From Begonia masoniana (lineage: Eukaryota; Streptophyta; Magnoliopsida; Cucurbitales; Begoniaceae), in NCBI GenBank assembly GCA_022432975.1, contig CM039502.1:15469143-15533142 (forward strand): a stretch of DNA of 64,000 nt, given 5' to 3'. The position numbers and the translations under genes are program-made. Each line of letters starts with the position of its first letter. Positions within the stretch are counted from its first letter, which is position 1. This document shows positions 10,881-59,186 of this stretch, piece by piece. The notes beneath the pieces were generated by a model. It was not told the DNA's origin. It did not search any database and was given only the letters and a program-made list of their open reading frames with translations.

Positions 10881-11067
10881 TGTTAGAGTATGACTAGTGA
10901 CTAGTTTAGTTTACCTGTATAGTTTAGTTTTACCTCTTTTCGGTGTTCATCATTATTTTACTGTACATATATATTGCACACTTTTACTCTTGAAAAATTG
11001 AATGAGAAGATTGCCGCCTTCATCTTCTTCTTCCTCTCCATCTTCGTGAATCCTGCAAACTCTAACT
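10881..11067 (+). repeat. 5' LTR of the 10.9-18.3 kb Copia
   Basis: It is paired with 18120-18306 at equal length, with about 97 percent identity by eye. It ends directly before the TGGTATCAGAGC primer site. Confidence 0.93.
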
Positions 11068-11084
11068 TGGTATCAGAGCTGCAG

Positions 11085-11699
11085 ATGACATCTCCAAGTT
11101 CGACAATACCCTCCCCTTCTTCTACCTCCCATTCATCTACCTCTCTGCCGCCTTTTCCCACCGCAAATCAAGTTTTAAACATCAAACTCAACAATACCAA
11201 TTACCTGTTCTGGAAAGCACAATTGCTCAATATCGTCATTGCCAATGGACTCGAAACCATTCTGGACGGAACTCTCCCTCAACCCCCACAGTTTCTGAAC
11301 AATCTTTCATCGCAGATTAACCCCGAGTTTACCACATGGCAGCGCTTCAATCGCCTTCTGATGAGCTGGGTTTTCTCCTCCTTATCGAAAGAACTTCTTC
11401 CGATCATTATCTCCTACTCCACTACTGCTGACATGTGGACAGCCCTGGCTCGCCGTTTTGCCTCCTCGTCGCTTGCTCGGATCACAAAGTTACGAGGCCA
11501 GCTTCACTCTCTTACCAAATATGGCCTCTCTGTTTTCCAGTACACTCAAAAGCTTACCTCCATCTACAACACTCTCGCAGCCATCGGCCACCCCGTACCC
11601 CTCAACGATCAAGTGATTTATCTTCTCGGTGGTCTTGGCAGTAATTACAATTCCTTTGTCACCTCTATTACAAATCGCACAGACGAGCCCTCCATGTAA
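11085..11699 (+). pseudogene. Copia gag, truncated by a stop
   Basis: The start at 11085 (MTSPSSTIP...) is the first ATG after the primer site. The frame gives a Ser/Pro-rich head and then a UBN2-type Copia gag domain (LNIKLNNTNYLFWKAQLLN ... LYGLS-like FVTSITNR). A TAA at 11697 ends it before the zinc knuckle. The knuckle (CQICHKSGHSALACFH, C-X2-C-X4-H-X4-C) lies in another frame from about 11960, so at least one frameshift separates the two halves. Confidence 0.85.
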
Positions 11700-11905
11700 G
11701 ATATCTACAGTCTGTTATAGAGCTATGAGTTTCGTCTTGAGAAACAGAATCTTGCGACCTCTCTCCAGATACCGAACTCAGTTCAGGCTCTCGTCGCGCT
11801 CATCAGCCATTCCGACCGGCGTCGTTCCCTCGGCCATTTGGCGTTCCAGTTCTGCGCCCTAGCACTCCTCTGCATCAGTATCCAGCCGATTTTGGGTCTT
11901 CGCCG

Positions 11906-13909
11906 ATGCCTCAACCCGTTTGGCGACCCACCCGGCCCAACTCTAAACCCAACCGGCCCAAATGCCAAATCTGCCATAAGTCGGGCCACTCCGCTTTAGC
12001 CTGCTTCCACCGGTTCAACCATTCCTACCCGACTGGCCCAACTAATCAAACCCGCCCACCAGCCCAACCCCCTTTAGCTTACCAAGCAAGCCCACATCTT
12101 TACCTACAACCCAACCCAACCCACTATCTCTATTTTTACCCACCCGACCCATCCCCTTATAACTCGACCCAGCTAACCCACCCACCCACCCCCCCCCCCC
12201 CCTCTTCCTCCCTCGCTCCGTTTCCCGAATTTCCTCTGTTTCCCGAACACTCCGCTCTTCCGCGAGCCCTCTCCACTGGTCTACTCCCCACTCCGCCGAC
12301 TTCTGCTCCATGGCTCCTCGACTCCGGGGCCACCCACCATTTCTCTTCAACGTCGACTACTCTTCACAATCCTCCGACTCTCACTGGCCCGAATTTTGCT
12401 GTCACCGCCGATGGTAAGTCTACTCCGATCTCTCACCTTGGTTCTGCTTTAATTGCAACTCCTTTCTGTGCTCTTCACTTAAATTCCAGCTGTTATACTC
12501 CTGGTTTTTCCCATAATCTTCTCAGTGTTCGAAAATTATGCACTGATAACTATGTTGTTGTTGAATTTGATTCTCATAGTTTCTATGTTAAGGATCGTAT
12601 TTCTCGCCAAATCCTTCTCCAGGGTTCACTTGTTGATGGCCTCTATCAGCTTCCCGTGCTCTCTGTCGCTCGATCTCTCTCTGCCTCCCTGTCGAGCTCA
12701 CAGTTTGTTTCCTTTCCCTTTGCTTCCCTGTCGCGGTCAAGGCAGTCTTCCACCCAACTGTGGCATTCCAGATTGGGTCACCCGTCTGTCTCTATTTTGC
12801 AAAGTGTAATGAATATTTGTAATATTCCTTTTGTACACAATGAATTGCCAAACTTTTGTACTCCTTGTCAAATGAGTAAATCTCACAGATTGCCATTTTC
12901 TATTTCTGAATCTCATTCTAATTTTCCCTTTGAACTTGTGCATACCGATGTGTGGGGTCCATCTCCTTTTCCCTCTTTTACTGGCGATCGTTACTTTCTT
13001 TTATTTGTGGACGATTGCACTCGTTTTACTTGGATGTTCCTTTTAAAATTAAAAAGTGATGTCCTTCTTACCTTTGTGCACTTTCATCGTTACATTCAAA
13101 CCCAATTTGGGTCCTCTATTAAAGTCGTTCAATCCGACAGGGGCGGAGAGTTCCAATCCCTCTCTCCCCTTTTTAAATCTCTTGGCATCCGTCACCGTAT
13201 CTCCTATCCGTATACTCCTAATCAGAATGGACGTGTAGAGCGCAAAAACTGCCATATTGTCGAAACTGGTCTCACTCTCCTCTTCCATTCTTCTGTCCCT
13301 CAAAAATTCTGGCCCTATGCTTTTTCTACTGCTACGAGTCTCATAAACGTTCTTCCTACACCTGTTCTTCAAAATAAATCACCATTTGAATGCTTGAACA
13401 ATTCTCTTCGCGATTACGCGTCTCTACGTGTTTTTGGTTGCTTGTGTTTCCATTTTCTCCGTCCTTACAATCAAAATAAACTCCAGCCTCGCTCTCTTCC
13501 ATGTGTGTTCTTAGGTCTTAACCCTAATCACAAAGGGTATCTTTGCCTTGAAACTCGATCCCACAAACTCTACATCTCTCGTCACGTTACTTTTGACGAA
13601 TTCATTTTTCCATTCTCTTTTCTAAATTTATCTCCTCCCCTTCCTTCCCCATCTTCATTTCCCATAACCCTGAGTCAGCCATCACTCCTCCCAGTCCCTC
13701 CTCCTATTTCTTCTTCAATTCCTGTTTCACGTTCTCCATCTAATTCTCTCAATCCATCCGCTCTACCTATACCTTCATCACCTTCCCTGTCCGTTCCCCA
13801 ACCTCTCGCCTCTCCTACCCTCACTCCCATGTCTACCCCAACCCCTCCTCTTCCAACAAATACTCATCCAATGCGCACCTGAGCCAAAATGGTATCTTTA
13901 AGCCCAAAG
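11906..13909 (+). pseudogene. Copia zinc knuckle, protease and integrase part of pol
   Basis: The frame opens near 11906 and carries, in order, the CCHC knuckle, a Pro-rich linker, the protease site LLDSGATHHF (about residue 140), the pre-integrase region (LWHSRLGHPS ... CTPCQMSKSHR), and an integrase core with HTDVWGP, VDDCTRF and SDRGGEF plus PNQNGRVERKN. These active-site residues look intact. An in-frame TGA at 13880-13882 (a CGA-to-TGA type change) and the LTR insertion at 13910 end the frame. The same coding sequence resumes at 16551. Confidence 0.92.
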
Positions 13910-16550
13910 TGTAACACTCGAGAATTTCCTATTACGTGCGTAGCCTACGACTAGATGTGTTAGGAGAGTTTAATTATGTAAGTTTTATGTTATGCATTGA
14001 AGAGAAGAGAAAACCAAAAGGGGGTTGACAATTCAACATAAAGAAAAGAGTTGAAAAGTCAACAACCAATAGGAATTTTTTTATAAAGCAATAATTGAAT
14101 AAAAAAGGGGGAGAAATTTATGTGAATCACGTTGGAGGTTCTTAAGGGAAAGAGATGGGTTGGTTTTACAAATTTATAAAGAAGGGTGGTGGAAAGGTAA
14201 AAGTAAATAATTGTTTTATCAATTAAAAGAAAAGTGAAGGAAAGAAATGTAAAAGGTCTTCTTCTTCCTCTTGCCATTTACGATTGCTTGCCACCATTGA
14301 TGCCCTCCAAAGCTTCATCTCATCAAGAGTTGTCAAGGTGATTTGAGGTAAAAATAAGTGGGTTTTAGGTTAATGCTGGTTAGAGTTAGTTTTTAAAGGC
14401 TTTTAGTGGGTTTTGGGTGAATTTGCATAGGGTTTGAAAACCCTAAATGGTGACCTCCGAAAATTTAGTTTAAATGTTGGTTTTCTTTCTAGATTTGAGG
14501 ATTTAATTGTTGGATGGATTAGTTTAGGTGATTAGGGTGGTTAGATTAAAGTTTGGAAGTAAGTTTGGAAAAATCGGTTTTTTCACCATAGATGGCCGAT
14601 TCTGTTTTCTGGCTTTTTGGTTCAGCCAAGTTGGTTATTTGGTTAATTTGAGTGTTTCAATGGATAGTAGACGTGTAGAGATTTTCGAGATGGGGTGGCG
14701 CGTCGAAATCCGTTGAAAAACGAGTGAGTTACGACCGTTTGAAGTTAGACGGTCAATTTTGAGGTGAAAACCGAGTTTTATGTTTTGGGAATGAATTGTG
14801 TTGTAGTTTTAGTTAGTTTAGGTTAAGAATTTCCTTAGAGTTCGTTAGTAATGCTAAGTTGGGTTTTCGTTATTTTAGGTGATCGAGCGTGTACTTTGAT
14901 CGGACGAAGTGAACGAGAAAGTATCGAGCAGCCAGGTAAGTAGTGGATGAGTGTTTGTTGCCTTCGGGCCTACACCATAGAACGGTAGGGATTGTTTGTT
15001 TGTTTGTTTGTTATGTTTTGCTTTGTGTCATGCATCGTGTGTCATGCATCATCGTTTTCTAACTACGAAACCACGTGTTTTGCATGTTTGAGTGGTGAGG
15101 ATGACGTAATGAAAGATAAGAATTGATTGCAACTTGGTCTCGAGTAGAATAGTCTTGTCGGGCAAATGGCTCGTTGAGCACCCCGCGAGGGATTGTATTC
15201 GAGATGCTCTGCTAATGTACGTAATGTGTCGTGAGTATGAATGCCTCGACCTGCTCGTGCTGATAAACACAGACCTGCTCGTGCCGGAAGGCACACTGGG
15301 GCATTCTACGATTGACAAAGGGGGGATTCGGTTGGCCGTCCCGGACTGTGTTAGGACGTGTGCCTCCAGTCTTGCCCGTGGATCAAGGCGTGGCCGTCCT
15401 GGACTGTGTGGGGGCGTGTGCCTACTTGATTCACATGGAAGTGAAAGATAAATGTAACTGAAACGAAAAGAAAACAATAGAGTGTGTAGAAACTGCATGT
15501 TAGGGTTGAGTCGAGCATGTAGTATGTATTGTGCATTATTTCCCTACTTGCTAAGCGTTAGGCTTACCTTTTTGTGTTATATGGTGTAGGTGACGAGTAT
15601 ATTACAGGTGAGGTAGACAAGACCGCCGAGGATTAGGCAGCAGTCGGGGAGTACGGAGTACGCCGGTGCAGGCTATTATCGGGGCATTTTGACCACTGTC
15701 GTCCTCGGGTAGTGTGGGAGGTGAACATTTTGTTGTGGATGGGTTATTTTGTAAGTGTTTTGTAAGATTTTGTTTTGAATAGAAGTTAGGATAAAAGTTA
15801 GGAAAAACGTGAACGATTTAGTGTAAATGTTTTCGTAAATGTTGTAAGGTTTGGTTGTAAATTGTTTCGTAAGTATTTTTGGAAAGTTTTCGAGTCAATA
15901 GTGTTGTTGGATTGTTGGGTAAGGTCATAAATGGTTGGGGTTTGAAATAGCATGATTTCTGGTTTTAAATCGCAGGTTTTGGTTTATCGGATTTTAGGCG
16001 TTACGCCGTCTGTTTTGATTTTAAACTAAATAACGTTGGGTTTAGTTTGCTATTTTTGTATTTCTCCGTTTTTAGTCGGTTTTCCAAAAATTTTATGGGA
16101 CTTGAAGATTTAGGTGTTGGGAGTGTACGGTAAAAATTTCGGAATTTTTGGAAGTGCTTAGCTTGGAGAAAATCGAAGAAAAAGGGGTGAAGGTCGGCTG
16201 GGAGTGCAGGGGCGATCGCCAGGGGCGATCGCCAGCCTCTCTGGTACTGTAGCACCAGAGAGGGTGGCGATTGATCGCCACATTGTGGCGATCAATCGCC
16301 ACTGTTTTATAAAAAAAAAAACATTAAATTTTAATTTTTTTCAAATTTTCTTATTTGGAACTGGTTTTAACCCGACATTTTCTGACGCATTTTAACTGTA
16401 TTTTGGGCACACTTTCTAACAAAACTTGAGGGTTTGAAAAACCCGAAAACGAGTCAAAAAATTTATGAAAATTACTTTAAACGTCATTTTAAAAATGGGT
16501 TGGGTTTGAAATGTGACGCACCGAGCTCAGGGCGGGTTCGGGTCGTTACA
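13910..16550 (+). mobile_element. Solo LTR nested in the Copia polyprotein
   Basis: It runs from TGTAACACTCGAG to GGTCGTTACA, 2641 bp, flanked by CAAAG at 13905-13909 and 16551-16555. It has no second LTR, primer site or coding domain. It is clearly the same family as the solo LTR at 21782-24068: shared blocks include TAGTAGACGTGTAGAG, CCAGGTAAGTAGTGG, GTTGCCTTCGGGCCTACACC, TTTCCCTACTTGCTAAGC and TATGGTGTAGGTGACGA. Its insertion post-dates the Copia. Confidence 0.95.
16264..16302. repeat. Perfect 18-bp inverted repeat in the LTR
   Basis: GTGGCGATTGATCGCCAC at 16264-16281 is followed by ATT and then by its exact reverse complement at 16285-16302. Just upstream lie two GGGGCGATCGCCA copies (16209-16233) and a second hairpin with arms CTCTCTGGT and ACCAGAGAG (about 16236-16262). 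Related GCGATCG hairpins occur at the matching place in the minus-strand Gypsy at 26370-26465 and 27165-27265. Confidence 0.95.
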
Positions 16551-18106
16551 CAAAGCCTTCTCCGTAGAAACTATCATTGAGCCCAAAACCTTTAACCAAG
16601 CCTCCAAACACTCTCACTGGTTGGCTGCTATGCATGAGGAAATGATGGCCCTATCTTTTAACTCTACTTGGACATTGGTTTCTCCCCCTTCCGACGTCAA
16701 GATTATTGGCTGTAAGTGGGTTTTTAAAACTAAACTCAATTCTAATGGCACGATCAACAGGTACAAAGCTTGTTTAGTGGCAAAGGGATATGATCAGACG
16801 GAAGACATTAACTATGAGGAAACCTTCAGCCCAGTTGTGAAACCTGCATCCATCTATACCACTCTTGCCTTAGCCATCTCCTATGGCTGGATCATCAAAC
16901 AGCTAGATGTAAGTAATGTCTTTTTACATGGTGATTTAACTGAGACAGTGTTTATGCAGCAACCTCCAGGTTTTGTGAGTTCCTCTCATCCATCTGCTGT
17001 ATGTCACTTACGCAAGGCCCTTTATGGCTTAAAACAATGTCCTCAGGCCTGATACACAAAGCTATACACAGCTCTTCTCGATTGGGGTTTCATTGCTTCC
17101 AAGTCAGATACCTCTCTCTTCATCCGTCGCCAGTCCTCCTCCGTTATTATTATGCTGGTTTATGTTGACGACATCATTTTCACGGGTAACTCGGCTCCTT
17201 TACTCGATCAGCTTCTTTTATACTTAAATTCTAGATTTAAGGTGCGTGACCTTGGATCATTATCATTTTTTCTCGGGATTTTTGTCACTCACACTCCTAC
17301 AGGCATGAGCTTTTCACTGTCCAGATATATTCATGAAATATTGTACAGAGCTAATATGGTCTCCTACAAACCAGTTCCTACCCAGATGATTTCAGACCCT
17401 ATTCTTTCAAAGAATTCTGGTATCCCTCTCCGTGACGGCTCTCTTTATCGCAGCATAGTTGGCAGCCTGCAATACTACTGTCTTACCCGGCCTGACATTG
17501 CTTTTGCTGTCAACAAGGTCTCTCAATTCATGCACTCCCCTTCTGACGTACATTGGCAGGCAGTCAAAAAATATCTTGCGGTATCTCCAAGGTACTTCCT
17601 CTTTGGGTATATCCTTCTCTGCATCTCCTACCTCCAATTTGGTTTGTTATACAAATGCTGATTGGGCCTCTTGTCCCGATGACCGTAAGAGTACAAGTGG
17701 TTTCTGTATCTTTTTGGGCTCCAACCTTATCTCGTGGTCTTCCACCAAACAGAAAACTGTCTCAAGGTCAAGTACTAAATTCGAATATCGCAGTGTATCC
17801 AATGGTGCTGCCAAACTCTTGTGGCTCCAATCTTTGCTCCACGAATTGGGTTTTCTCCCTACCGAGGTACCTCTCATTTTATGTGATAACCTCAGTGCGA
17901 CGTATCTAGCTTCCAACCCAGTTCTCCACTCTAAATCCAAGCATGTTGAGATTGATTTTCACTTTGTACGTGAAAAAGTTCTCCATAAGACCTTGTCGTT
18001 GAAATTCACTCCTTCAGATCATCAATTGGTCGATGCCTTCACCAAGCCGCTTCCACCTTCCACTTTCTTGGTTTTTCTTTCCAAGATCTTCGGCCTCCGG
18101 ATTTGA
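16551..18106 (+). pseudogene. Copia reverse transcriptase and RNase H, broken
   Basis: After the nested LTR the Copia pol continues. RT motifs include WVFKTKLNSNG, QLDVSNVFLHGDL, ALYGLKQ and the catalytic YVDD (LVYVDDIIFTG near 17157). RNase H motifs (NADWASCPDDRKSTSGFC, SSTKFEYRS, CDNLSATYLASNP, ADAFTK-like VDAFTKPLP) follow to a stop at 18104. A TGA at 17050 replaces the expected Trp codon, and a frameshift near 17575 moves the reading frame between RT and RNase H. Confidence 0.92.
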
Positions 18107-18119
18107 TCTTGAGGGGGGG

Positions 18120-18306
18120 TGTTAGAGTATGACTAGTGACTAGTTTAATTTACATGTATAGTTTAGTTTTACCTCTTTCCGATGTTCATCATTATTTTAC
18201 TGTACATATATATTGTACACTTTTACTCTTGAAAAATTGAATGAGAAGATTGCCGCCTTCATCTTCTTCTTCCTCTCCATCTTCGTGAATCCTGCAAACT
18301 GTAACT
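18120..18306 (+). repeat. 3' LTR of the 10.9-18.3 kb Copia
   Basis: It matches 10881-11067 in length and nearly all bases, and it is preceded by the polypurine tract GAGGGGGGG. The flanking target copy ATAAT follows at 18307-18311. Confidence 0.93.
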
Positions 18307-19123: not shown

Positions 19124-19362
19124 AACAGTGTGATGACCTGAATGTGTACGTATGAGTACGACTACGGGGCAAATCTCGGATTGAGGGGCAAACCTCGGAA
19201 CCTAAACCGAGTGTACGCAAATCCCAGACTCGAGTATAGACAAATCCTGGGTCGTAAAAAGAGGTCGTCACAATCTCACATCGCTTGAGGAAGTATATGG
19301 AAATGAAACATATGTAAGGAAACTCTCCCAAGATAGTGAGACGCGTTTTGGAGCACAATTGA

Positions 19363-19447
19363 CAACGGATCCCATAAGAACTCCGAAGTTAAAAGTGCTT
19401 CGGCGAGAGCAGTACCATGTTAGGTGACCGACTGGGAAGTCCTCGCC
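19363..19447 (+). ncRNA. 5S rRNA-like segment in the Cassandra 5' LTR
   Basis: The stretch contains CGGATCCCATAAGAACTCCG, AAGTTAAAAGTGCTTCGGCG and GTACCATGTTAGGTGACC, then TGGGAAGTCCTCG. These match, in order, the central and 3' part of plant 5S rRNA, including the A-box and C-box of the Pol III internal promoter with a few changes. It is a retrotransposon LTR part, not a functional 5S rDNA unit. Confidence 0.9.
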
Positions 19448-19835
19448 AAATAAAGCCGTGAGGAGAGGATATTGGGCTACGGCCCAATCCTCAGAGTGGA
19501 CAGTATTTTACTGGGAAGGGGTCATTATAAATGGTATCAGAGCCTGTACCCAACCAGAAATATAGCCAACGAGGATGTTGGGCCCCCGAGGGGGGTGATT
19601 ATGATGACCCGAATATGTACGTATGAGTACGACTGCGGAGAAAATCTCGGGTTGCGGGGCAAACCTTGGGACCTAAACCGAGTGTAAGCAAATCCCAGAC
19701 TCGAGTATAAGCAAATCTCAGGTCGTAAAAAGGGGGTCGACACAATCTCACATTGCTTAGGAAAGTATATGGAAATGAAACATATGTAAGAAAACTCTCC
19801 CAAAATAGTGAAACGCATTTTGGAGCACAATTGGT

Positions 19836-19918
19836 AGCGGATCCCATAAGAACTCTGAAGTTAAAAGTGCTTCGGCGAGAGCAATACCATATTGGGTGAC
19901 CGATTGGGAAGTTCTCGT
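19836..19918 (+). ncRNA. 5S rRNA-like segment in the Cassandra 3' LTR
   Basis: This is the second copy of the 5S-derived stretch (GCGGATCCCATAAGAACTCT ... TACCATATTGGGTGACC ... TGGGAAGTTCTCG). It carries more C-to-T type changes than the copy in the 5' LTR, as expected for a methylated, ageing element. Confidence 0.9.
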
Positions 19919-20379
19919 TAAACAAAGCTGTGAGGAGAGGATATTGAGCTACGGCTCAATCCCCAGAGCGGACAATATCTTACTGAGAAAATGGGTCGTT
20001 ATAAACAGAGCATGAGCGCGACCATTAGATAGGCACAGGCCTATCCTCCAAGAAAGTCCAACGTCCTCTGTAATTGATCTGATTGACATAACAAATTATA
20101 TCCATTTTTTAACTAGCCATCCTGTTCTGGAAACCTTGAGAAGTCAGCTACAATCTTCATGAAGAACACTTTTTTATTTAAGATTGAGATGACTTTGAAA
20201 ATGGCCAAATAGTTTTCAGGAGTCAGATTCCGGGCAGATTTCAACAATCCGTTTAACTTGTGTTTTGTTCTCCATTTATGTTTCACCATGTTAAACTCCC
20301 TATTAAATTTGTTTGCCACATTATTGAAATTGAGGCATTGAATATTCATTTCTCCTTGATCACTTACAAAACAAGTACT

Positions 20380-21781: not shown

Positions 21782-24068
21782 TGTAACACCCGCGAATTTT
21801 CTGTACGTGCGTAGCCTTAGATTAGACGTGTTAGGAGAGTTCAATTATTCAAATTTAGTAATGTGCATTGAAGAGTAATAGAGAAAAGAGAAGTGGAGGT
21901 GTTGACCATTCAAACTAAAACAAGTTGAAAAGTCAAAAGTATTTAGTTTGAAAAGTCAATGTATAATTTAACCAATAAGAAAGGACTTGGAAAGATTGCA
22001 TGAGGATGAGGTGGATGGCAGCCACGTGGGAGGTTATTAAAGGATGCATGAGGGTGAGGTGGATGGCAGCCACGTGGGAGGTTATTAAAGGGACAAGTGG
22101 TGGGTGCATGAGGGAGAGGTGGATGGCAGCCACGTGGGAGGTTATTAAAGGGACAAGTGGTGGGTGGATTTTATAATTTGGAAGAAATTTGTGGAGGTAA
22201 AGAAAAAGGGGAAAAACTGTATGTTAAAATTAGGTTTTTTTCAACTTTCTTCCTCATTTTTGGTTCTCTCCTCCACGAAATTTCCAGCCCCTCTCCTCCT
22301 CCATTTCATCCATTTTGACAAGGGTTTTTAAGGTAAAAAATTATGGGTTTTGGTTTGGTTTCACTTAGGTGTTGATTTGTGAGTGTTTTAGTGAGTTTTA
22401 AGTGGGTTTTGTGAGAATTTGGAAAACCCTAAAGGGGGATTCCGAAAATTTCACTCCCTTGGTTATTTTTCTTCCTCTTGTGATGATTAAAGCTTTGAAA
22501 ATGTTAGTTTAGGTTGTTTGAGTGATTAGATTAAGGATTGGATGGAAGTTACACAAAAACCAATTTTTAGCAAATGTGTACCCGGTTCTGTTTTTGTGTT
22601 TTTGGTTCGGCCAAGTTGGTTGTTTGGTTAATTTGAGTATGTCAATGGATAGTAGACGTGTAGAGGTTGGAAATTGTGTGAAAATCGGGTTTGAGTGTTT
22701 TAGGTTGAAAAGTGATATTGATTTGCTTTAGTTGGTTTCTTTAGAATTCCTTAGGTTGTTAGTAAGTGATTTTGTTCTTATTTGTTAGGTAATTGCACGA
22801 GTGAATTATCGGACGAAGTGAATAATTGAATTGCGAGCTACCAGGTAAGTAGTGGAGTGCTTGTTTGTTGCCTTCGGGCCTACACCATAGAATGGTAGGG
22901 ATTGTTTGTTTGTTTGCTGTATTTTAATTTGTGTCATGCATCGTGTGTCATGCATCATCATTTTCTAACTACGAAACCACGTGTTTTGCATGCTTGAGTG
23001 GTAAGAATGAATTGAAAGATAAGAAAATTGATATGCAACCTGGTCTCGAGTATAATAGCCTCGTCGGGCACGTGGCTCGCTGAGCACCCCGCGGGGGATT
23101 TACTTGAGATGCTATGCTAATGTACATAATGTGTCGTGAGTATGAATGCCTCGATATGTTCGTGCTTGAAGACACAATGAGGATTCTATGATCGATTGAG
23201 GGAGATTTGGTTGGCCGTCCAGGATTGTGTTAGGGCGTGTGCCTCCGGTCTTGCTCCGTGGGTCAAGGTGTGGCCGTCCAGGATTGTGTTGGGGCGTGTG
23301 CCTACTTGATTCACATGAAAGTGGAAGATAAATGTAACCAGAACGAGAAGAAAACAACAGAGTGTGTAGAAACTGCATGTTAGGGTTGAGTCGCGCATTT
23401 AGTGTGGATTATGCATTATTTCCCTACTTGCTAAGCATTAGGCTTATTTTGGTGTTCTATGGTGTAGGTGACGACTATTATACAGGTGAGGTAGACGAGA
23501 CCGTCGAGGATTAGGCCGCAGTCGGAGGAGTACGAGGCCACCGGTGCAGGCTATTGTTGGGGCGTCTTAACCACTGTTTTCCTCGGGTTTGTGGGAGGTT
23601 GCTATTTTGTATGTAGATATTTGGTATGTAGATATTTGGTGGGTGGTCTAAGTTATTTTGATGAGTTAACTTGTTTAAATTGTGGTAGGTTTTGGTACAT
23701 TTTGGTACATTGCATTTGTAAATGTTTTCGTAACTGTTTTGACGGGTTGCGAGTTAATTGTGTTGATGGATAATGGTTGTAAGTGCTTGTGGTTTGAACT
23801 AGTTTGATTCCTGGTTTCCTGGTTTTAATTGCAGGTTTTGGTTTATCGAATTTTAGGCGTTATGCCGTCCGTTTTTATTTTAAATTCTTTTTAAAATTTT
23901 CCTATTTCCAAATTATTTTCACCCGATATTTTACGACGTATTGTAAACGTACTTTGGGCACGTCCGAAAACTGAGTCGAAAAATTATCGAAATTTTTTTA
24001 TGTCGTTTTAAACGCGGGTTGGGTTTGCAATGTGACGAACCGAGCCGGGGCGGGTTCGGGGAATTACA
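21782..24068 (+). mobile_element. Solo LTR nested in the Helitron
   Basis: It runs from TGTAACACCCGCG to GGAATTACA, 2287 bp, flanked by AAATG at 21777-21781 and 24069-24073. It is the same family as 13910-16550, with long stretches of near identity. It has the same candidate leader intron, GTAAGT at 22845 to an acceptor at 23467. Near its 5' end it carries a tandem repeat. Helitron coding phrases occur on both sides, which confirms the insertion point. Confidence 0.95.
21998..22160. repeat. 47/60-bp tandem repeat in the solo LTR
   Basis: Three copies of GCATGAGG(A/G)(T/A)GAGGTGG followed by ATGGCAGCCACGTGGGAGG and TTATTAAAGG start at about 21998, 22045 and 22105. The later copies add ACAAGTGGTGGGT, which lengthens the unit from 47 to 60 bp. 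Each copy contains one CACGTG core. Confidence 0.85.
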
Positions 24069-25892: not shown

Positions 25893-26289
25893 AGTTGAGT
25901 TTCAACTAGTATGTAACTGTTAAGATAGGATTCGGTAAAAGTTAATATTAATTTTGCACTTGCACATGTTTTCGCTTATTTAGTTATTCTTATCGCTTGT
26001 ATAATTTTGTGATGTAGGTGAATTTTTATCTGATGAAGAATTGACTGTGATCGAGAATGTAACGCCCTTGAACCCACCTCGGCTCGGTGCGCTACTTTGC
26101 TAAGCTATCCCACGTTTAAAAACGTAATTTAAAATAATTTTCATAAATTTTTGGCTCGATTTCGGGTTTTTCGAACTCTCAAAATTTTTTGAAAAACGTG
26201 CCAAAAATACGTATAAAATACGTCGAAAAATGTCGGGTTAAAATATTTTGAAAAACTGGAAATTTTTTGAAAAAAAAAATCGGTCTAGT

Positions 26290-26530
26290 CTGGCTCGGGT
26301 CAGTGCGCACACCGCGCGCGCAGCCTCGCACCGCGCGCGCCACCCTGCGTGCGCGTGTGTCGACCGATCGCCGCTCAGCGGCGATCGATTGGCACCCTCT
26401 CGGGTGTGCGATCACAATCGGCAGAGAACCCGCCAATTGATCGCCACTCAGCTGCGATCGATAGGCGCTGCTGGGCGCAGCGCACGCCTGGCGCGCGCCC
26501 AGCCCACGCTCTGTGCGCGCCCATTCAACC
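26290..26530. other. CpG-rich island in the truncated 3' LTR
   Basis: This part is strikingly GC-rich against an AT-rich background, with CGCGCGCGC runs and repeated GCGATCGATTGG or CGATCGCC motifs. The palindrome CGATCGCCGC-TCA-GCGGCGATCG lies near 26370-26395. The paired copy in the other LTR is at about 27120-27310. Confidence 0.85.
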
Positions 26531-26862
26531 TCCCTCTCGTTTCTTCCATTTTTTTTTCCAGAGCCAAACTCCTCCAAATTTCCTGAAATTTTAACCATAC
26601 AATCCCAACACCCAAAACTTCATGTCCCGTAAAAATTTTGAGAAAACGACTTAAAACGAATAACAAAACTAACCCGACATTATAGACATTTTTAACAAAA
26701 ACCAACAATATAACGGCTAAAAGTTTCTAAATCCGAAAACCTGAAAACCATCGAATCTTAGATATAAACTAACTAAAGGAAAGAAATACTTACAGTCGGT
26801 GAAGCACGTTGTATGACGGCCGGCACTGTCGGGTAATTCTTTGAACGTCTCGACCACTTTTT

Positions 26863-26874
26863 GCTCTGATACCA
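26863..26874 (-). promoter_or_regulatory. tRNA primer-binding site of the Gypsy element
   Basis: GCTCTGATACCA on the plus strand reads TGGTATCAGAGC on the minus strand. It sits 3 bases after the LTR end GGGGCATTACA and matches the usual initiator-Met tRNA primer site. Confidence 0.9.
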
Positions 26875-27894
26875 ACTTGTAATGCCCCTGAACCCACCCC
26901 GGCTCGGTGCGCTACTTTGCTAAGCTATCCCACGTTTAAAAACGTAATTTAAAATAATTTTTGTAAATTTTTTACTCGATTTCGGGTTTTTCGAACCCTC
27001 GAAAAATTTTAAAAAAACGTGCCAAAAATACGTCTAAAATACGTCGGAAAATATTGGGTTAAAATATTTTGGAAAACCAGAAATTTTTTGAAATAAAAAC
27101 CGGTTTGGTCCCGTTCGGGTCGGTGCGCGCACCGCGCGCGCCACCCCGCGTGCGCGTGTGCCGACCGATCGTCGCTCAGCGGCGATTGATTGGCACCCTC
27201 TCGGGTGCGTGATCACAATCGGCAGAGAACCCGCCGATCGATCGCCACTCAGCTGCGATCGATCGGCGCTGCTGGGCGCAGCGCGCGCCTAGCCCGCGCC
27301 CCGTGCGCGCCTATTCAACCTCCCTCTCTTTTCTTCTATTTTTTTTCCCAAGCCAAATTCCTCCAAATTTCTTGAAATTTTAACCATACAATTCCAACAC
27401 CCAAAACTTCATGTCCCATAAAAATTTTGGGAAAACGACTTAAAACGGATAACAAAACAAACCCGACATTATAGACATTTTTAACAAAAATCGACAATAT
27501 AATGGGTAAAAGTTTCTAAATCCGAAAACCTGAAAAACATGCATTTAAAACACAATTTAAACCCAATTCACACCAGAATCAAACGCTAGTGTTTATATCA
27601 AAACAAATCTCACAAAATCAACCACAAAATCTCAATCCCAACTACAAACCACACCCCGAGAATCAGATCGAAGCGCCCCGACAATGGCCTGCACCGGCGA
27701 GCCCCGTTGATCTTTGACTGCTCCTAGTCTTGATCCTCGCTATCAAGCTCACCTGTCAACACTCCGTCACCTACACCACAGAACACAAAACATAAGCCTA
27801 ATGCTTAGCAAGTAGGGATTTATGAATGCACAAACACACAATGCTCGAACACTCTAACACATGCAGTTTCTAACACTCAATTTTGCTGATAAGT

Positions 27895-30512
27895 TTTGCC
27901 TGAATCGTTAGACGCCTTAATTGCCTGCATCGAAAGATGCCTTAGTTGCCTGCACCCATAGGATGCCTTAATTGCATGCATCAAAAGATGCCTTAGTTGC
28001 CTGCACCATAGCATAGGATGCCTTAAAGTTTGCCTGCACCCATAGGATGCCTTAAAGTTTGCCTGCACCCATAGGATGCCTTAAAGTTTGCCTGCACCCA
28101 TAGGATGCCTTAAAGTTTGCCTGCACCCAAAGGATGCCTTAAAGTTTGCCTGCACCCATAGGATGCCTTAAAGTTTGCCTGCACCCATAGGATGCCTTAA
28201 AGTTTGCCTGCACCCATAGGATGCCTTAAAGTTTGCCTGCACCCATAGGATGCCTTAAAGTTTGCCTGCACCCATAGGATGCCTTAAAGTTTGCCTGCAC
28301 CCATAGGATGCCTTAAAGTTTGCCTGCACCCATAGGATGCCTTAAAGTTTGCCTGCACCCATAGGATGCCTTAAAGTTTGCCTGCACCCATAGGATGCCT
28401 TAAAGTTTGCCTGCACCCATAGGATGCCTTAAAGTTTGCCTGCACCCATAGGATGCCTTAAAGTTTGCCTGCACCCATAGGATGCCTTAAAGTTTGCCTG
28501 CACCCATAGGATGCCTTAAAGTTTGCCTGCACCCATAGGATGCCTTAAAGTTTGCCTGCACCCATAGGATGCCTTAAAGTTTGCCTGCACCCAAAGGATG
28601 CCTTAAAGTTTGCCTGCACCCAAAGGATGCCTTAAAGTTTGCCTGCACCCATAGGATGCCTTAAAGTTTGCCTGCACCCAAAGGATGCCTTAAAGTTTGC
28701 CTGCACCCATAGGATGCCTTAAAGTTTGCCTGCACCCATAGGATGCCTTAGTTGCCTGCATCAAAAGATGCCTTAGTTGCCTGCATCAAAAGATGCCTTA
28801 GTTGCCTGCATCAAAAGATGCCTTAGTTGCCTGCATCAAAAGATGCCTTAGTTGCCTGCATCAAAAGATGCCTTAGTTGCCTGCATCAAAAGATGCCTTA
28901 GTTGCCTGCATCAAAAGATGCCTTAGTTGCCTGCATCAAAAGATGCCTTAGTTGCCTGCATCAAAAGATGCCTTAGTTGCCTGCATCAAAAGATGCCTTA
29001 GTTGCCTGCATCAAAAGATGCCTTAGTTGCCTGCATCAAAAGATGCCTTAGTTGCCTGCATCAAAAGATGCCTTAGTTGCCTGCATCAAAAGATGCCTTA
29101 GTTGCCTGCATCAAAAGATGCCTTAGTTGCCTGCATCAAAAGATGCCTTAGTTGCCTGCATCAAAAGATGCCTTAGTTGCCTGCATCAAAAGATGCCTTA
29201 GTTGCCTGCATCAAAAGATGCCTTAGTTGCCTGCATCAAAAGATGCCTTAGTTGCCTGCATCAAAAGATGCCTTAGTTGCCTGCATCAAAAGATGCCTTA
29301 GTTGCCTGCATCAAAAGATGCCTTAGTTGCCTGCATCAAAAGATGCCTTAGTTGCCTGCATCAAAAGATGCCTTAGTTGCCTGCATCAAAAGATGCCTTA
29401 GTTGCCTGCATCAAAAGATGCCTTAGTTGCCTGCATCAAAAGATGCCTTAGTTGCCTGCATCAAAAGATGCCTTAGTTGCCTGCATCAAAAGATGCCTTA
29501 GTTGCCTGCATCAAAAGATGCCTTAGTTGCCTGCACCCATAGGATGCCTTAAAGTTTGCCTGCACCCATAGGATGCCTTAAAGTTTGCCTGCACCCATAG
29601 GATGCCTTAAAGTTTGCCTGCACCCAAAGGATGCCTTAAAGTTTGCCTGCACCCATAGGATGCCTTAAAGTTTGCCTGCACCCATAGGATGCCTTAAAGT
29701 TTGCCTGCACCCAAAGGATGCCTTAAAGTTTGCCTGCACCCAAAGGATGCCTTAAAGTTTGCCTGCACCCATAGGATGCCTTAAAGTTTGCCTGCACCCA
29801 AAGGATGCCTTAAAGTTTGCCTGCACCCATAGGATGCCTTAGTTGCCTGCATCAAAAGATGCCTTAGTTGCCTGCATCAAAAGATGCCTTAGTTGCCTGC
29901 ATCAAAAGATGCCTTAGTTGCCTGCATCAAAAGATGCCTTAGTTGCCTGCATCAAAAGATGCCTTAGTTGCCTGCATCAAAAGATGCCTTAGTTGCCTGC
30001 ATCAAAAGATGCCTTAGTTGCCTGCATCAAAAGATGCCTTAGTTGCCTGCATCAAAAGATGCCTTAGTTGCCTGCATCAAAAGATGCCTTAGTTGCCTGC
30101 ATCAAAAGATGCCTTAGTTGCCTGCATCAAAAGATGCCTTAGTTGCCTGCATCAAAAGATGCCTTAGTTGCCTGCATCAAAAGATGCCTTAGTTGCCTGC
30201 ATCAAAAGATGCCTTAGTTGCCTGCATCAAAAGATGCCTTAGTTGCCTGCATCAAAAGATGCCTTAGTTGCCTGCATCAAAAGATGCCTTAGTTGCCTGC
30301 ATCAAAAGATGCCTTAGTTGCCTGCATCAAAAGATGCCTTAGTTGCCTGCATCAAAAGATGCCTTAGTTGCCTGCATCAAAAGATGCCTTAGTTGCCTGC
30401 ATCAAAAGATGCCTTAGTTGCCTGCATCAAAAGATGCCTTAGTTGCCTGCATCAAAAGATGCCTTAGTTGCCTGCATCAAAAGATGCCTTAGTTGCCTGC
30501 ATCAAAAGATGC
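27895..30512. repeat. Bipartite 25/29-bp minisatellite array
   Basis: Two related monomers alternate in blocks. Monomer A (25 bp) contains TTAGTTGCCTGCATC plus AAAAGATGCC; monomer B (29 bp) contains TTAAAGTTTGCCTGCACCC plus ATAGGATGCC or AAAGGATGCC. After a mixed start the order is about 25 B (to 28750), about 31 A (28751-29532), about 11 B (29533-29840) and about 27 A (to 30512). Each A unit holds the hairpin GCATC-AAAA-GATGC. The pattern of ATA/AAA variants just before each A block is nearly the same, so a B+A segment was duplicated as a whole. Confidence 0.97.
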
Positions 30513-31932
30513 GAAAGGTAGCAACCACTACTTACCTAATGCTCGGCTTTCACTTGCTCACTTCTATCAGTCAATTCACTCGTTCGGTAACCTATCAATT
30601 ATAGAAAAATAACTTAGCAATTCACTCATAAAAGTCTAAAGGATTCTAAAACCGAAACTAGCCAACAACTCAACCTAAAACCACAAAACCTGATTTTATT
30701 ACAATTTAACAACGTCCAACTTCGAATGGCCATAACTCCCTTGTTTTTCAACGGATTTCGATGTGCCACCCCAATCTGTAAACCTCTACATGTCTACTAT
30801 CCATTGAAATACTTAAATTAACCAACCAAACACATTGGCCAACCCGAATCTCCAAAAATAGAATCGGCCTCCAAGTGTTCACAACCCGGTTTTTGTGTAA
30901 CTCTTATCCAATCCTTAATCCAACCAACCAAACAACCTAAACTAACATAATTAAGGATTAAATGATCGAAAGAGGAAGAAAACCATCCAAGGAAAAGTCA
31001 TTTTAGGAATCCTCCACCTAGGGTTTTCAAACCCTCACCAAAATCCAACCAAAACTCACTAAAAACTCCAACAAACTTCACCTAAAGATATAAAAACCAA
31101 AACTCATGTATTCTTACCTTGAAATGCCTTGAAAAATTGAAGCAAAGGAGAGGAGGAGAGTCGGCTATGGAGGAGAAGAAGAAAGGGCGTGGGAGATGAA
31201 GAAGAAAACAAAAACTTTACCATTTAACCTAACCATTTTCTTCTCTTTTAAATTCTCCCACCAAAATTTTAAAAATTGAAATTCAACCCCTACTTTTCTC
31301 TCTTGAATGTCAACGTGAATCACAAAAGAAAAGCACATTTCAATTACTTTTCATTTCCATTTCCAAGCATTTCTATTGGTTCCTTTATGTTTTGACTTTT
31401 CAAACCTACTCCTTTTTGACTTGTCAACTTCTTTTCTTTTCTTTGCATTATTTCTAAACCCTTTATTACTAAACATTAAACCCTCTAACCTTGTAATCCT
31501 AGGCCTATACGCATTATAGGAAATTCTTGGGTGTTCTAGAGAACCTTCCAGAGGCAAGCGAGCATACAAACGAAGACAATGTTTAAGGAATGAATTTAAA
31601 TTTATTATTTTTAGTTTTTCAATGATATTTCATATTTTTATTTTAGATGAAAACTTGAATAAATTATGTTGATTTTATTGTTAATAAAGTTTTATGAATT
31701 TTTTTAATTATGCAATTATTTCAATTTGATCAAGCTATTTAATATTTGAACATTGTTTTAAATGTTACCGCACATTTGATGATTTCATTCAAGGCTTTCA
31801 AATATTTTAAAATTAGGCTAATGATGCTTGAATTTAAATCTAATTTGATAAATCAATTTAAAAAAAAATTTAAAATTTTCAAATTAGGATTTCAAATTGA
31901 AAAAAATAAATTTCAAACTCTGGGGCGTTACA

Positions 31933-44598: not shown

Positions 44599-47500
44599 AT
44601 GGAGGCACAAGAAAATAAAGAGAGGGAGCAGCCATCACATGGCTGCAATCCTGTTCAGAAAGCAGGGCCAGTGTCCATGGATCATGTCCTTCTTGCGTTG
44701 CAAGAGACCAAAGAAGAGAGAGAGTCGAGAATCCGAAGCCTCTTTAAATGTTTTGACACGACAAACACTGGATATTTGGATTACGCACAGATTGAAGCCG
44801 GTTTGTCCACCCTTCAGATTCAGTCAGAGTACAAGTATGCAAAGGATTTGCTTAATGTATGTGATGCAAATAAAGATGGGCGCGTTGATTATCAGGAGTT
44901 CAAGCGATACATGGACGATAAGGAGCTCGAGCTTTACCGTATTTTTCAGGCCATTGACGTTGAGCATAATGGATGTATTTTGCCTGAAGAGCTCGACGAA
45001 GCACTTATCAGGGCAGGTAAACACACGCTGCATTAAAGGTAGAAATATTTACGTGATTTTCTGTCAGTCCATTAATTTTTTATGATTACAATTATCGTTT
45101 GGAAGTTGCACTAGACATTCTGATTAAGAATCTATTGGGTGGTTTTTGTTTGGAAGGGTGGTTCTGCTTATATGTAGTTGTTGCATAGTCCTTGTCATCT
45201 TCTCACATAATTATATTGCATCATTATGCTTGATGGTTTAACATATGGCCATGGGAGCATAATTATTGTCTCTGGTGACGGTTTTATCAATATTTATTAG
45301 AGCTAAACCAGAATACTTATCTCTGCTTTCATAATGACCTATCAACATCTGTGTTGGATGCCCAGCTTGCTTCTTGCAGATTTTTCAATATATTTTTTTT
45401 ATCAACTTGTTATATACAATGCAGAAATTTGAGGGTGTTTGTTCAAAGTATTTATGTTGAAAGAAAACATGTTGTATTTTACTTGAAATTGTTTAAAATT
45501 GCATTGGCTGGTATTTGATTTAGCCTGATTGTTTATTTAGAAAAATTGCTATGAGTTTATGATGTTTTTCAATAAAATTTATATTATTTTCAGTCTATAA
45601 TTAGGAGTCGTTTTCATTCTATAAGCCACGCTAGTCTCCTTTTTGTAGGTATCGAGATCGAGGATGAAGAGCTTGTTCGTTTTGTGGAGCGTGTAGATAA
45701 AGATAATAACGGGATTATTACATTCGAAGAGTGGAGGGATTTTCTTCTATTGTACCCTCATGAGGCTACAATTGAGAATATATATCACTATTTCGAGAGG
45801 GTTTGTCTTGTTGACATTGGAGAGCAGACTATCATTCCAGAGGGGATCAGCAAACATGTTGCAAGTAGATATCTGATTGCCGGAGGAGTTGCAGGGGCGA
45901 CATCTCGTACAGCCACTGCACCTCTCGATAGATTAAAGGTTGTTTTACAAGTACAGACGACTCAGGCTCGTGTGATGCCAGCAATTCGAGAATTATGGAG
46001 ACAAGGTGGTCTGTTGGGGTTTTTTCGTGGAAATGGTTTAAATGTGATTAAAGTAGCCCCTGAAAGCGCGATAAGGTTTTATACATACGAAATGCTGAAG
46101 TCTGTGATTGTTAATGTAAAAGGGGGAGAAGACAAGGCCGAAATCGGTACACTGGGCCGACTTTTTGCTGGTGGGTTAGCTGGTGCTGTGGCTCAGACCA
46201 CCATTTACCCGATGGATCTCGTCAAAACACGAATACAAACGTTTAGTTGTCAATCTGGGCGAGTTCCTAGTATTGGTACTCTCTCGAAAGATATTTTGGT
46301 CCAAGAAGGGCCTCGTGCGTTCTACAGGGGAGTTGTTCCTTCTCTTCTGGGTATCATCCCTTATGCTGGCATTGACCTTGCTGTGTACGAGACTCTGAAA
46401 GATATGTCGAAGAAATATATTCTCGACGATAGTGGTAAGATATTCACGTTCAAATATCTCGAATTTTTTTCTCTCGTTTATGGCATTCTATTTGATGTGT
46501 GTTTCTATTGGGTAGTGATCAAAATTTAGATCTCATTCAGATCCAGGACCGCTTGTGCAACTGGGATGTGGAACGGTCTCTGGGGCTTTCGGAGCAACTT
46601 GTGTTTACCCATTACAGGTCGTAAGGACTAGGTAAGAAGTGTTGGGATATGTTACCGCCTTTCATGGCAGTCTAATTTTGATAATTTTACAGTAATGTTA
46701 GATTACCTTCTAATTTTACACTTTAATTTTTTCCTCATAACATAACATAACATAACGTGTCGCATATTGATTAGTATAATGATATAAACCCTGTAATCTC
46801 AAAATCTCCGAACAATCACAAAACAACCAAGAAATAACAATCACTCAATAACTAGATTCGTAACAGTGAAGATAACATAACATAACATAACATAACATAA
46901 CATAACATAACATAACATAACATAACATAACATAACATAACATAACATAACATAACATAACATAACATAACATAACATAACATAACATAACATAACATAA
47001 CATAACATAACATAACATAACATAACATAACATAACATAACATAACATAACATAACATAACATAACATAACATAACATAACATAACATAACATAACATAA
47101 CATAACATAACATAACATAACATAACATAACATAACATAACATAACATAACATAACATAACATAACATAACATAACATAACATAACATAACATAACATAA
47201 CATAACATAACATAACATAACATAACATAACATAACATAACATAACATAACATAACATAACATAACATAACATAACATAACATAACATAACATAACATAA
47301 CATAACATAACATAACATAACATAACATAACATAACATAACATAACATAACATAACATAACATAACATAACAACAATCACTCAATACTAGATTCGTAACA
47401 GTGAAGAGAATTCGAGAGTCCTTCTCTCTCCCACTTTCCAGATTCTTCTCCTCCTCTCCCCTCCATCCCCTCCTCACGTATAACCTCTCCTAACCGAATT

Positions 47501-58197: not shown

Positions 58198-59186
58198 ATT
58201 TTAAATTAAAATTTTGAACGATCTAAATTCAGAAGTATGAAAAATATTTGACTTAAACTATATCGGCTCCCTGTTCTCGAGATTGGGGGGGGGGGGGGGG
58301 GGGGGGGGAATCTCTAACATCGGGGGGCCGTTCTCTAAGAACAGTCCCCCGATCTCACTTGGCACGTTCGAGTGAGATGGTGGGTGGTGAACCCCATACC
58401 GGGGATGGTTTCCTTGTTCTCAACAAAAAACAAAGAAAATAATATTGAATTTTCTTAAAATTTTTATCATATTTTCAGCATATCATTAGAAGATAATTTG
58501 GAAGATTTCGTGATTTTTCAATACTTATAAAATTTATTATAATTTTTGACGTCTATATTTATAGAATATTGTTTAAAAAATTATAATAAATCGTACAAGT
58601 GTTGAAAAATCTCGAAATTTTCTATATTATCTTCACATGATATCGTTTGGTTATCTAAAAAATTTATAGTTTAGAACATTGTTTTAAAAAATTTATAGTG
58701 GCTATTTCAAAAAATATACCAAATAATGTTTGATTTTTTTGAAATTTACAACATGTTTAACATATCGTGGAAGATAATCAGGAAATTTTCTTGATTTTTC
58801 AACACTTGTACGATTAATTATAATTTTGTAAACAATAATCTATAAAATAGACGTAAAAAATTATAATACATAGTAGAAATGTTGAAAACTCACGAAACCT
58901 TTTAGATTATCTTCTAATGATATATTGAACATGTGATAAAAATTTTAAGAAAATCTGATATCGTTTGTCATGTTTTTTGTCGTGAACGGAGTTCACCACT
59001 TCTAGTGGACCCACCACCCCCGATCTCACTCGAACATGCCAAGTGAGATCGGGTGAACGTTATTAGAGAACGACTCCCTATGTTGGAGATCGGCCTCCCG
59101 ATCTCTAAGAATGGGGGACAGATATAATTTAAATTAAATATTTTTCATACTTCGAGATTTATATCGTTTGAAATTTTACTTTAAGG
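58198..59186. mobile_element. 1-kb foldback (inverted repeat) element
   Basis: The two halves are imperfect reverse complements along almost the whole length. Shared landmarks on opposite strands include GAAGTATGAAAAATATTT, CCGATCTCACTTGGCA(C/T)GTTC, TTTTCTTAAAATTTTTATCA, TATCATTAGAAGATAAT and CGTACAAGTGTTGAAAAATC. The turn is near 58690. No coding capacity. It shares the GATCGGCC/GGGGG style of the elements at 3190-3736 and 62485-63163. A G24 run (58285-58308) lies in the left arm. Confidence 0.85.

Follow-up and report, generated by a model that had tools for sequence, protein, structure and literature searches.

Within a 64,000-nucleotide stretch of Begonia masoniana contig CM039502.1 (the window), we followed up a retrotransposon copy on the minus strand whose long terminal repeat (LTR) houses a 2.6-kb minisatellite. 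The initial annotation had proposed that the segment around this array, shared with three further LTRs in the window, might be an intron, and that intron is very probably real. In our best explanation—which we would give a probability of about 0.86—the segment (hereafter, intron 2) is a spliceosomal intron in the 5′ leader that the LTR of a Ty3/gypsy chromovirus encodes, another intron (intron 1) precedes it in the same LTR, and the spliced leader has occasionally been copied. Added here to the earlier reading are the probable second LTR intron, apparent genomic fossils of spliced leader RNA that was reverse-transcribed, and what looks like recurrent growth of arrays within intron 2.

Splice-site patterns and copies that lack the introns

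The intron-2 sites lie where they had been placed, with CAG/GTAAGT at 1246, 14936 and 22845 on the plus strand, TAG/GTAAGT at 30535 on the minus strand, and GGTGTAG/GTGACG at the far end of all four spans (626, 654, 623, and 2,765 bp). Genome-wide, the 5′ site pattern GCCGAGCRNTCAGGTAAGTA had 1,583 matches with at most one mismatch, compared with none for the reversed-pattern control. We then tallied 58 distinct exon-2 copies, comprising two spliced ones, one (L002) whose site was lost to its array, one empty row, and 54 scored ones; GTAAGT was intact in all 54 of these unspliced copies with readable sequence, while only 3 of 57 exon-2 columns were invariant. Many of the loci were picked with queries that cover or abut the 5′ site, which favors copies retaining it; others were selected largely by exon 3 and carry less of this bias. 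The annotation had named destruction of the sites in most family members as a refutation, and the outcome was the opposite. A further conserved block, around GCCTTCGGGCCTACACC, lies at the start of intron 2.

Intron 1, overlooked so far, is a second GT...AG segment upstream of intron 2 in all four window copies; in the divergent LTR at 125–2678, the splice-like sites were seen by eye in the same order as in its relatives. Across 68 exon-1/exon-2 pairs (several copies being counted twice), the exons stand ~400–555 bp apart, except in intron-less copies and in L034 (912 bp), and the edges between them mostly show GTRA starts and TAG ends. L051 does not enter the intron-1 lengths, as the exon-1 end pattern has no match there, and the last exon base before intron 1 is changed in L007 and L008. 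In 36 copies—a sample that favors close relatives of the query—mean column identity was 0.86 for intron 1 versus 0.62 for the U3 region of the LTR, and AAACCCTA recurred in 30 of the 36. Such conservation would fit regulatory sequence within the introns, which would also explain why intron-less copies are rare. With conserved consensus 5′ and 3′ sites (exceptions include L074 and L067) and exact removal that joins the exons, the segments have the hallmarks of GT–AG introns, and from these we infer splicing in the cell.

The genome itself appears to record such removal. Seven copies (L070, L071, L084, and L086–L089) lack intron 1 with an exact exon–exon junction, and L070 and L071 lack intron 2 as well, exon 2 being joined to exon 3 exactly at CAG/GTGACG, as expected if the annotated segment is an intron. 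A degenerate pattern for this join matched the genome twice, namely in these two copies (reversed control, 0), and a second pattern, covering subfamilies whose exon 3 begins GTGACGA, returned the same two. Exact segment loss of this sort can be regarded as fossil evidence, of the same kind as junction reads.

L070 (C7) is a 1.33-kb solo LTR with the target-site duplication GATCT, and it lacks both introns precisely from one edge to the other. Alignments of intron-bearing relatives to it break at the predicted intron edges; its exons 1 and 2 match the intron-bearing L083 at 89/90 and 51/56 positions, and its exon 3 matches L073 at 113/120. Separately, the left flank and the first part of this intron-less LTR appear, by eye, to be tandemly duplicated in L070 1–1393 (about 1–450 and 948–1393). 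In L071 (C12), both introns are likewise joined out at the exact sites. The other five copies (L084, L086–L089) have lost intron 1 exactly and retain the intron-2 5′ site; L084 is identical to the intron-bearing L085 over all comparable flank (207 bases, of which 121 precede and 86 follow intron 1).

Spliced copies are nonetheless scarce. With 20-base patterns and at most one mismatch, the unspliced 5′ site of intron 2 had 1,583 matches and the spliced junction 2, arguing that unspliced RNA would be the normal template for reverse transcription—a point on which we concur with the initial annotation. To this we would add that, on occasion, spliced leader RNA apparently serves as a template too. 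An exon-2-start pattern had 390 matches, and among the 37 matches listed with their sequence, 34 read TTTAG (intron 1 present) and three AAG (intron 1 absent: L084, L087, L089); intron-1 loss thus seems commoner than intron-2 loss. As for the number of events, L084 and L086–L089 cluster in an exon tree that rests on ~117 bases, yet this does not prove a common loss because they were found with an L071 query and so share their ascertainment. We claim at least two independent intron-1 losses (L070; L084/L071), and four to six are likely.

Repeat arrays and a proposed mechanism

The minisatellite was correctly placed inside intron 2, but the statement that it accounts exactly for the excess length of this copy does not hold. 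The array takes up 2,617 of 2,765 bp and leaves 148 bp, whereas 34 of 37 other copies have whole introns of 490–748 bp (the remaining three, 978–1,565 bp), in a sample that leans to short introns as the sampled loci were short. The window copy also lacks the conserved block near the intron-2 5′ site that relatives retain. The array therefore also replaced intron sequence, including the 5′ block.

Arrays recur in intron 2 with subfamily-specific units: 25/26-bp hairpin-like, 35-bp, about 88–99-bp, and TG-rich. In a few copies the array is slight or absent; L073 and L089 showed none within the up to 1,600 bases scanned. There is a limit to the tolerance, as the array of L002 has consumed the 5′ splice site. 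One might suppose that the arrays are more than tolerated, the hairpin units being kept for an RNA structure that, e.g., holds the splice sites together or slows splicing. The 25-bp unit carries a short palindrome, in which one stem pair is rarely C–A, as an RNA stem would allow (T–A 622, T–G 548, C–G 183, and C–A 4 of 1,361 units, counts that are not independent given tandem copies and overlapping loci; T–A 19, T–G 18, C–G 13, and C–A 4 among 57 distinct unit cores), so that the stem variants of this one unit family hint at covariation. However, single 25-bp units fold only slightly better than shuffles (z about −1) and the TG-rich units of other subfamilies (L084, L086, L087, L032) are unstructured, so that we consider a structural role rather improbable.

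A simple scheme could connect these features. Transcription from U3 would yield an RNA of the order exon 1–intron 1–exon 2–intron 2–exon 3–primer site–candidate intron 3–gag. The full-length unspliced form would be the usual template, so that new LTRs would normally keep both introns, and occasional reverse transcription of a partly or fully spliced leader would give rise to a copy without intron 1 or without both—in its two LTRs alike, because the leader regenerates both of them. Intron 2 would be a tolerant site in which short repeats expand independently in different subfamilies, and the reason why a kilobase minisatellite sits within an LTR may be just this location, where splicing can remove it. 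Promoter-proximal leader introns often raise expression in plants, and those described here may do the same. Spliced copies may stay rare through the loss of intronic elements or through poor packaging.

Further splice-like sites lie downstream. Eighteen nucleotides into exon 3 (27752), a candidate 5′ splice site, ACAG/GTGAGC, is preserved in 42 of the 53 distinct contexts; L070 retains the sequence unspliced, and we do not count it as a demonstrated intron. Between the primer site and the gag ATG, candidate intron 3 is complete in six relatives (60–65 bp; five GTAAGT starts, one ATAAGT). A similar arrangement recurs in other LTR elements nearby, on the minus strand of L075 (near 718) and L083 (near 2834), where, past the primer site, a GTAAGT-type site is followed by CAG or TAG immediately ahead of an ATG; elements of this sort may often have a leader intron in that position. 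If the introns were meant to rid gag of upstream ATGs, they would do so only in part at best, with 11 ATGs in exon 3 of L051 alone.

A bolder and more tentative extension, which we would not favor at present, has the life cycle controlled by splicing from within the LTR. Unspliced RNA would replicate, carrying intronic control elements and arrays forward, and progressively spliced RNAs would be translated, with exon 2 or the 18-nt start of exon 3 possibly joined to a site just before gag, thereby removing the primer site. Spliced RNA leaking into reverse transcription, together with changes of template from spliced to unspliced RNA or back (suggested by L071), would then generate retro-processed LTRs and let LTR intron content evolve.

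Points against splicing and alternative origins of the intron-less copies

Several observations weigh against a spliced leader. Individual sites are broken: the intron-2 3′ sites of L035, L026, and L074 are damaged, in L002 the array has replaced the intron-2 5′ site, the intron-1 5′ site of L074 is damaged, and the intron-1 3′ AG of L067 reads AA. Base composition offers little help, since intron 2 is hardly richer in U than the exons (0.27–0.34 versus 0.30 in exon 3; window copy: intron 1 40%, exon 2 20%, intron 2 27%, exon 3 30%; L051: intron 2 34%, exon 3 30%, intron 3 51%). Intron 2 is absent from only two copies genome-wide, and these belong to related subfamilies rather than to that of the window copy, for which none of 40 scored matches to a joined-exon query spanned the junction. 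One of the two, L071, departs from a simple spliced copy: at L071 1521–1560, and in L090, 18 nt of exon 3 are followed by three successive arrays (TTGGTTG-type, CGTGTACTGCC-type, and GGCACTTTGGTGC-type) resembling those of intron 2, possibly because copying moved from a spliced to an unspliced template. In L084 and L086–L089, the sampled sequence of intron 2 covers its 5′ part. Lastly, removal of introns 1–3 would leave gag without a clean leader, given the ATGs in exon 3 of L051.

The sites could also be merely inherited and functionless, with the intron-less copies arising by DNA deletion between AGGT repeats. Each intron has AG/GT at both ends, and a deletion at this 4-bp microhomology would yield the identical product; moreover, the LTR copies are homologous, and their shared sites are not independent. 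Yet L085 offers 1,204 pairs of 4-base repeats with a suitable spacing, of which the intron-1 edges are just one and 612 are longer, and the same edges were used by seven copies, two of which used them at both introns (the excess over other deletions being argued rather than counted genome-wide). GTAAGT, too, is invariant while adjoining exon columns vary. We regard this explanation as quite unlikely. Least probable of all is that the segments are introns gained by ancestrally intron-less LTRs: several intron-1-less copies are indeed mutually divergent (77–84% identity over exons), but the very divergent LTR at 125–2678 already carries both introns, the intron-1 end is present in 34 and absent in only 3 of the 37 matches listed with their sequence, the identity of L084 and L085 around the absent or present intron points to a recent change, and a 535-bp intron homologous to the others would be harder to gain, exactly where two exons meet, than to lose.

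The element, its surroundings, and known systems

The features of the studied copy and of its relatives in the window are collected in Table 1. Its LTR ends in GGGGCATTACA, followed by the primer site, and its start—the counterpart of the TGTAACACCC starts of relatives—is degenerate in the first bases. Even so, the annotated end at 31538 proved exact, as the perfect 5-bp target-site duplication GAGAA (26053–26057 and 31539–31543) directly abuts it and brackets the whole internally deleted copy (26058–31538).

Table 1. Coordinates in the window of the studied LTR copy, its predicted exons and introns, and related LTRs.
Feature	Position	Strand	Length	Remarks
LTR of studied copy	26878–31538	minus	4,661 bp	Delimited by its ends and the target-site duplication
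Exon 1, CT-rich	31118–31200	minus		Transcription start (5′ end) guessed
Intron 1	30592–31117	minus	526 bp	CAAG/GTAAGAATAC ... TTGATAG/GTTACC
Exon 2	30536–30591	minus	56 bp	
Intron 2	27771–30535	minus	2,765 bp	TAG/GTAAGT ... GTGTAG/GTGACG
25/26-bp minisatellite	27896–30512	minus	2,617 bp	95 units matched by unit pattern
Exon 3, LTR part	26878–27770	minus		
Primer-binding site TGGTATCAGAGC	26863–26874 (26874–26863)	minus		Primer-site match
Start of candidate intron 3, GTAAGTATTT	26752–26793	minus		3′ part deleted in studied copy
Tail of second LTR	26058–26751	minus		Internal deletion fuses tail to leader; 87% match to 26878–27540
Divergent solo LTR	125–2678	plus		Target-site duplication CCGTG; intron 1 ~590–1193 (by eye), intron 2 1246–1871
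Solo LTR	13910–16550	plus		Target-site duplication CAAAG; intron 1 14348–14878, intron 2 14936–15589
Solo LTR	21782–24068	plus		Target-site duplication AAATG; intron 1 22333–22788, intron 2 22845–23467

The internal region of a sister copy, L069, encodes Gag, RVP_2, zf-CCHC (zinc knuckle), RVT_1, and RNase H domains, and L011 and L012 contain integrase pieces and an SH3 domain. TG...CA-type LTRs, 5-bp target-site duplications, a primer site, and the order gag–protease–reverse transcriptase–RNase H mark the family as Ty3/gypsy. By its domains it is further classed as a chromovirus: the Chromo match (PF00385) in L012 is weak (E 2e-4; 21.6 bits against a curated cut-off of 25.1), but it stands where expected, after the integrase SH3 domain and just before an LTR. 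Membership of the Tekay clade is a guess. The LTR end and primer site missing from L069 were considered as a splicing product and this was ruled out, the edges not being splice sites. An Rfam search of L070, L071, L084, and L085 returned no match.

The three other window copies are solo LTRs, each with a perfect 5-bp target-site duplication. The one at 13910–16550 interrupts a Copia element (10881–18306; 187-bp LTRs 96.8% identical, gag and RVT_2 domains). Two 88%-identical repeats (19131–19531 and 19602–20005), each with a 5S rRNA match and with a primer site at 19532, form what looks like a Cassandra-type terminal-repeat retrotransposon in miniature (TRIM). The window also holds an (ATAAC) array at 46872–47372 (100 copies, 501 bp, 100% matches) and, at 58201–59184, ~1 kb with a 73% match to its own reverse complement, making it either a fold-back element or a large palindrome with imperfect arms.

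An intron in an LTR-encoded leader has a parallel in the R–U5 region of human and simian immunodeficiency viruses (HIV-2/SIV), which differ in host and element class. Macas and colleagues reportedly described, in 2009, hypervariable arrays of copy-variable tandem repeats in plant retrotransposons; those are said to lie in the 3′ untranslated region (UTR), whereas the present array lies inside an LTR intron. Titles and abstract openings of the open-licence literature—weak evidence of absence—described no LTR introns with intron-less genomic LTRs.

The closest known parallels, as far as the consulted parts of these reports go, are the spliced CRM4TR transcripts, BARE1, Ogre, and EVADE. CRM4TR transcripts of maize centromeric retrotransposons are spliced RNAs with a chromovirus-derived LTR–UTR sequence; they differ in coming from element-derived tandem repeats, and the part of the report consulted mentions neither intron-less genomic LTRs nor an array in an LTR intron (PMC3648361). 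Ogre and EVADE resemble the present family in having functional, partially spliced introns in plant LTR elements, according to the portions consulted (PMC12786077, PMC6317226). BARE1 of barley is likewise a plant LTR retrotransposon with spliced RNA and separate RNA pools, although its 104-nt intron lies at the end of gag, outside the LTR (PMC3735527, in the part consulted). Its authors argue there that spliced RNA must be excluded from replication (PMC3735527); in the Begonia family, by contrast, spliced leader RNA seems to enter replication at a measurable rate, and the presence or absence of introns at exact splice sites would amount to a naturally kept record, across the genome, of whether reverse transcription accepts spliced retrotransposon RNA.

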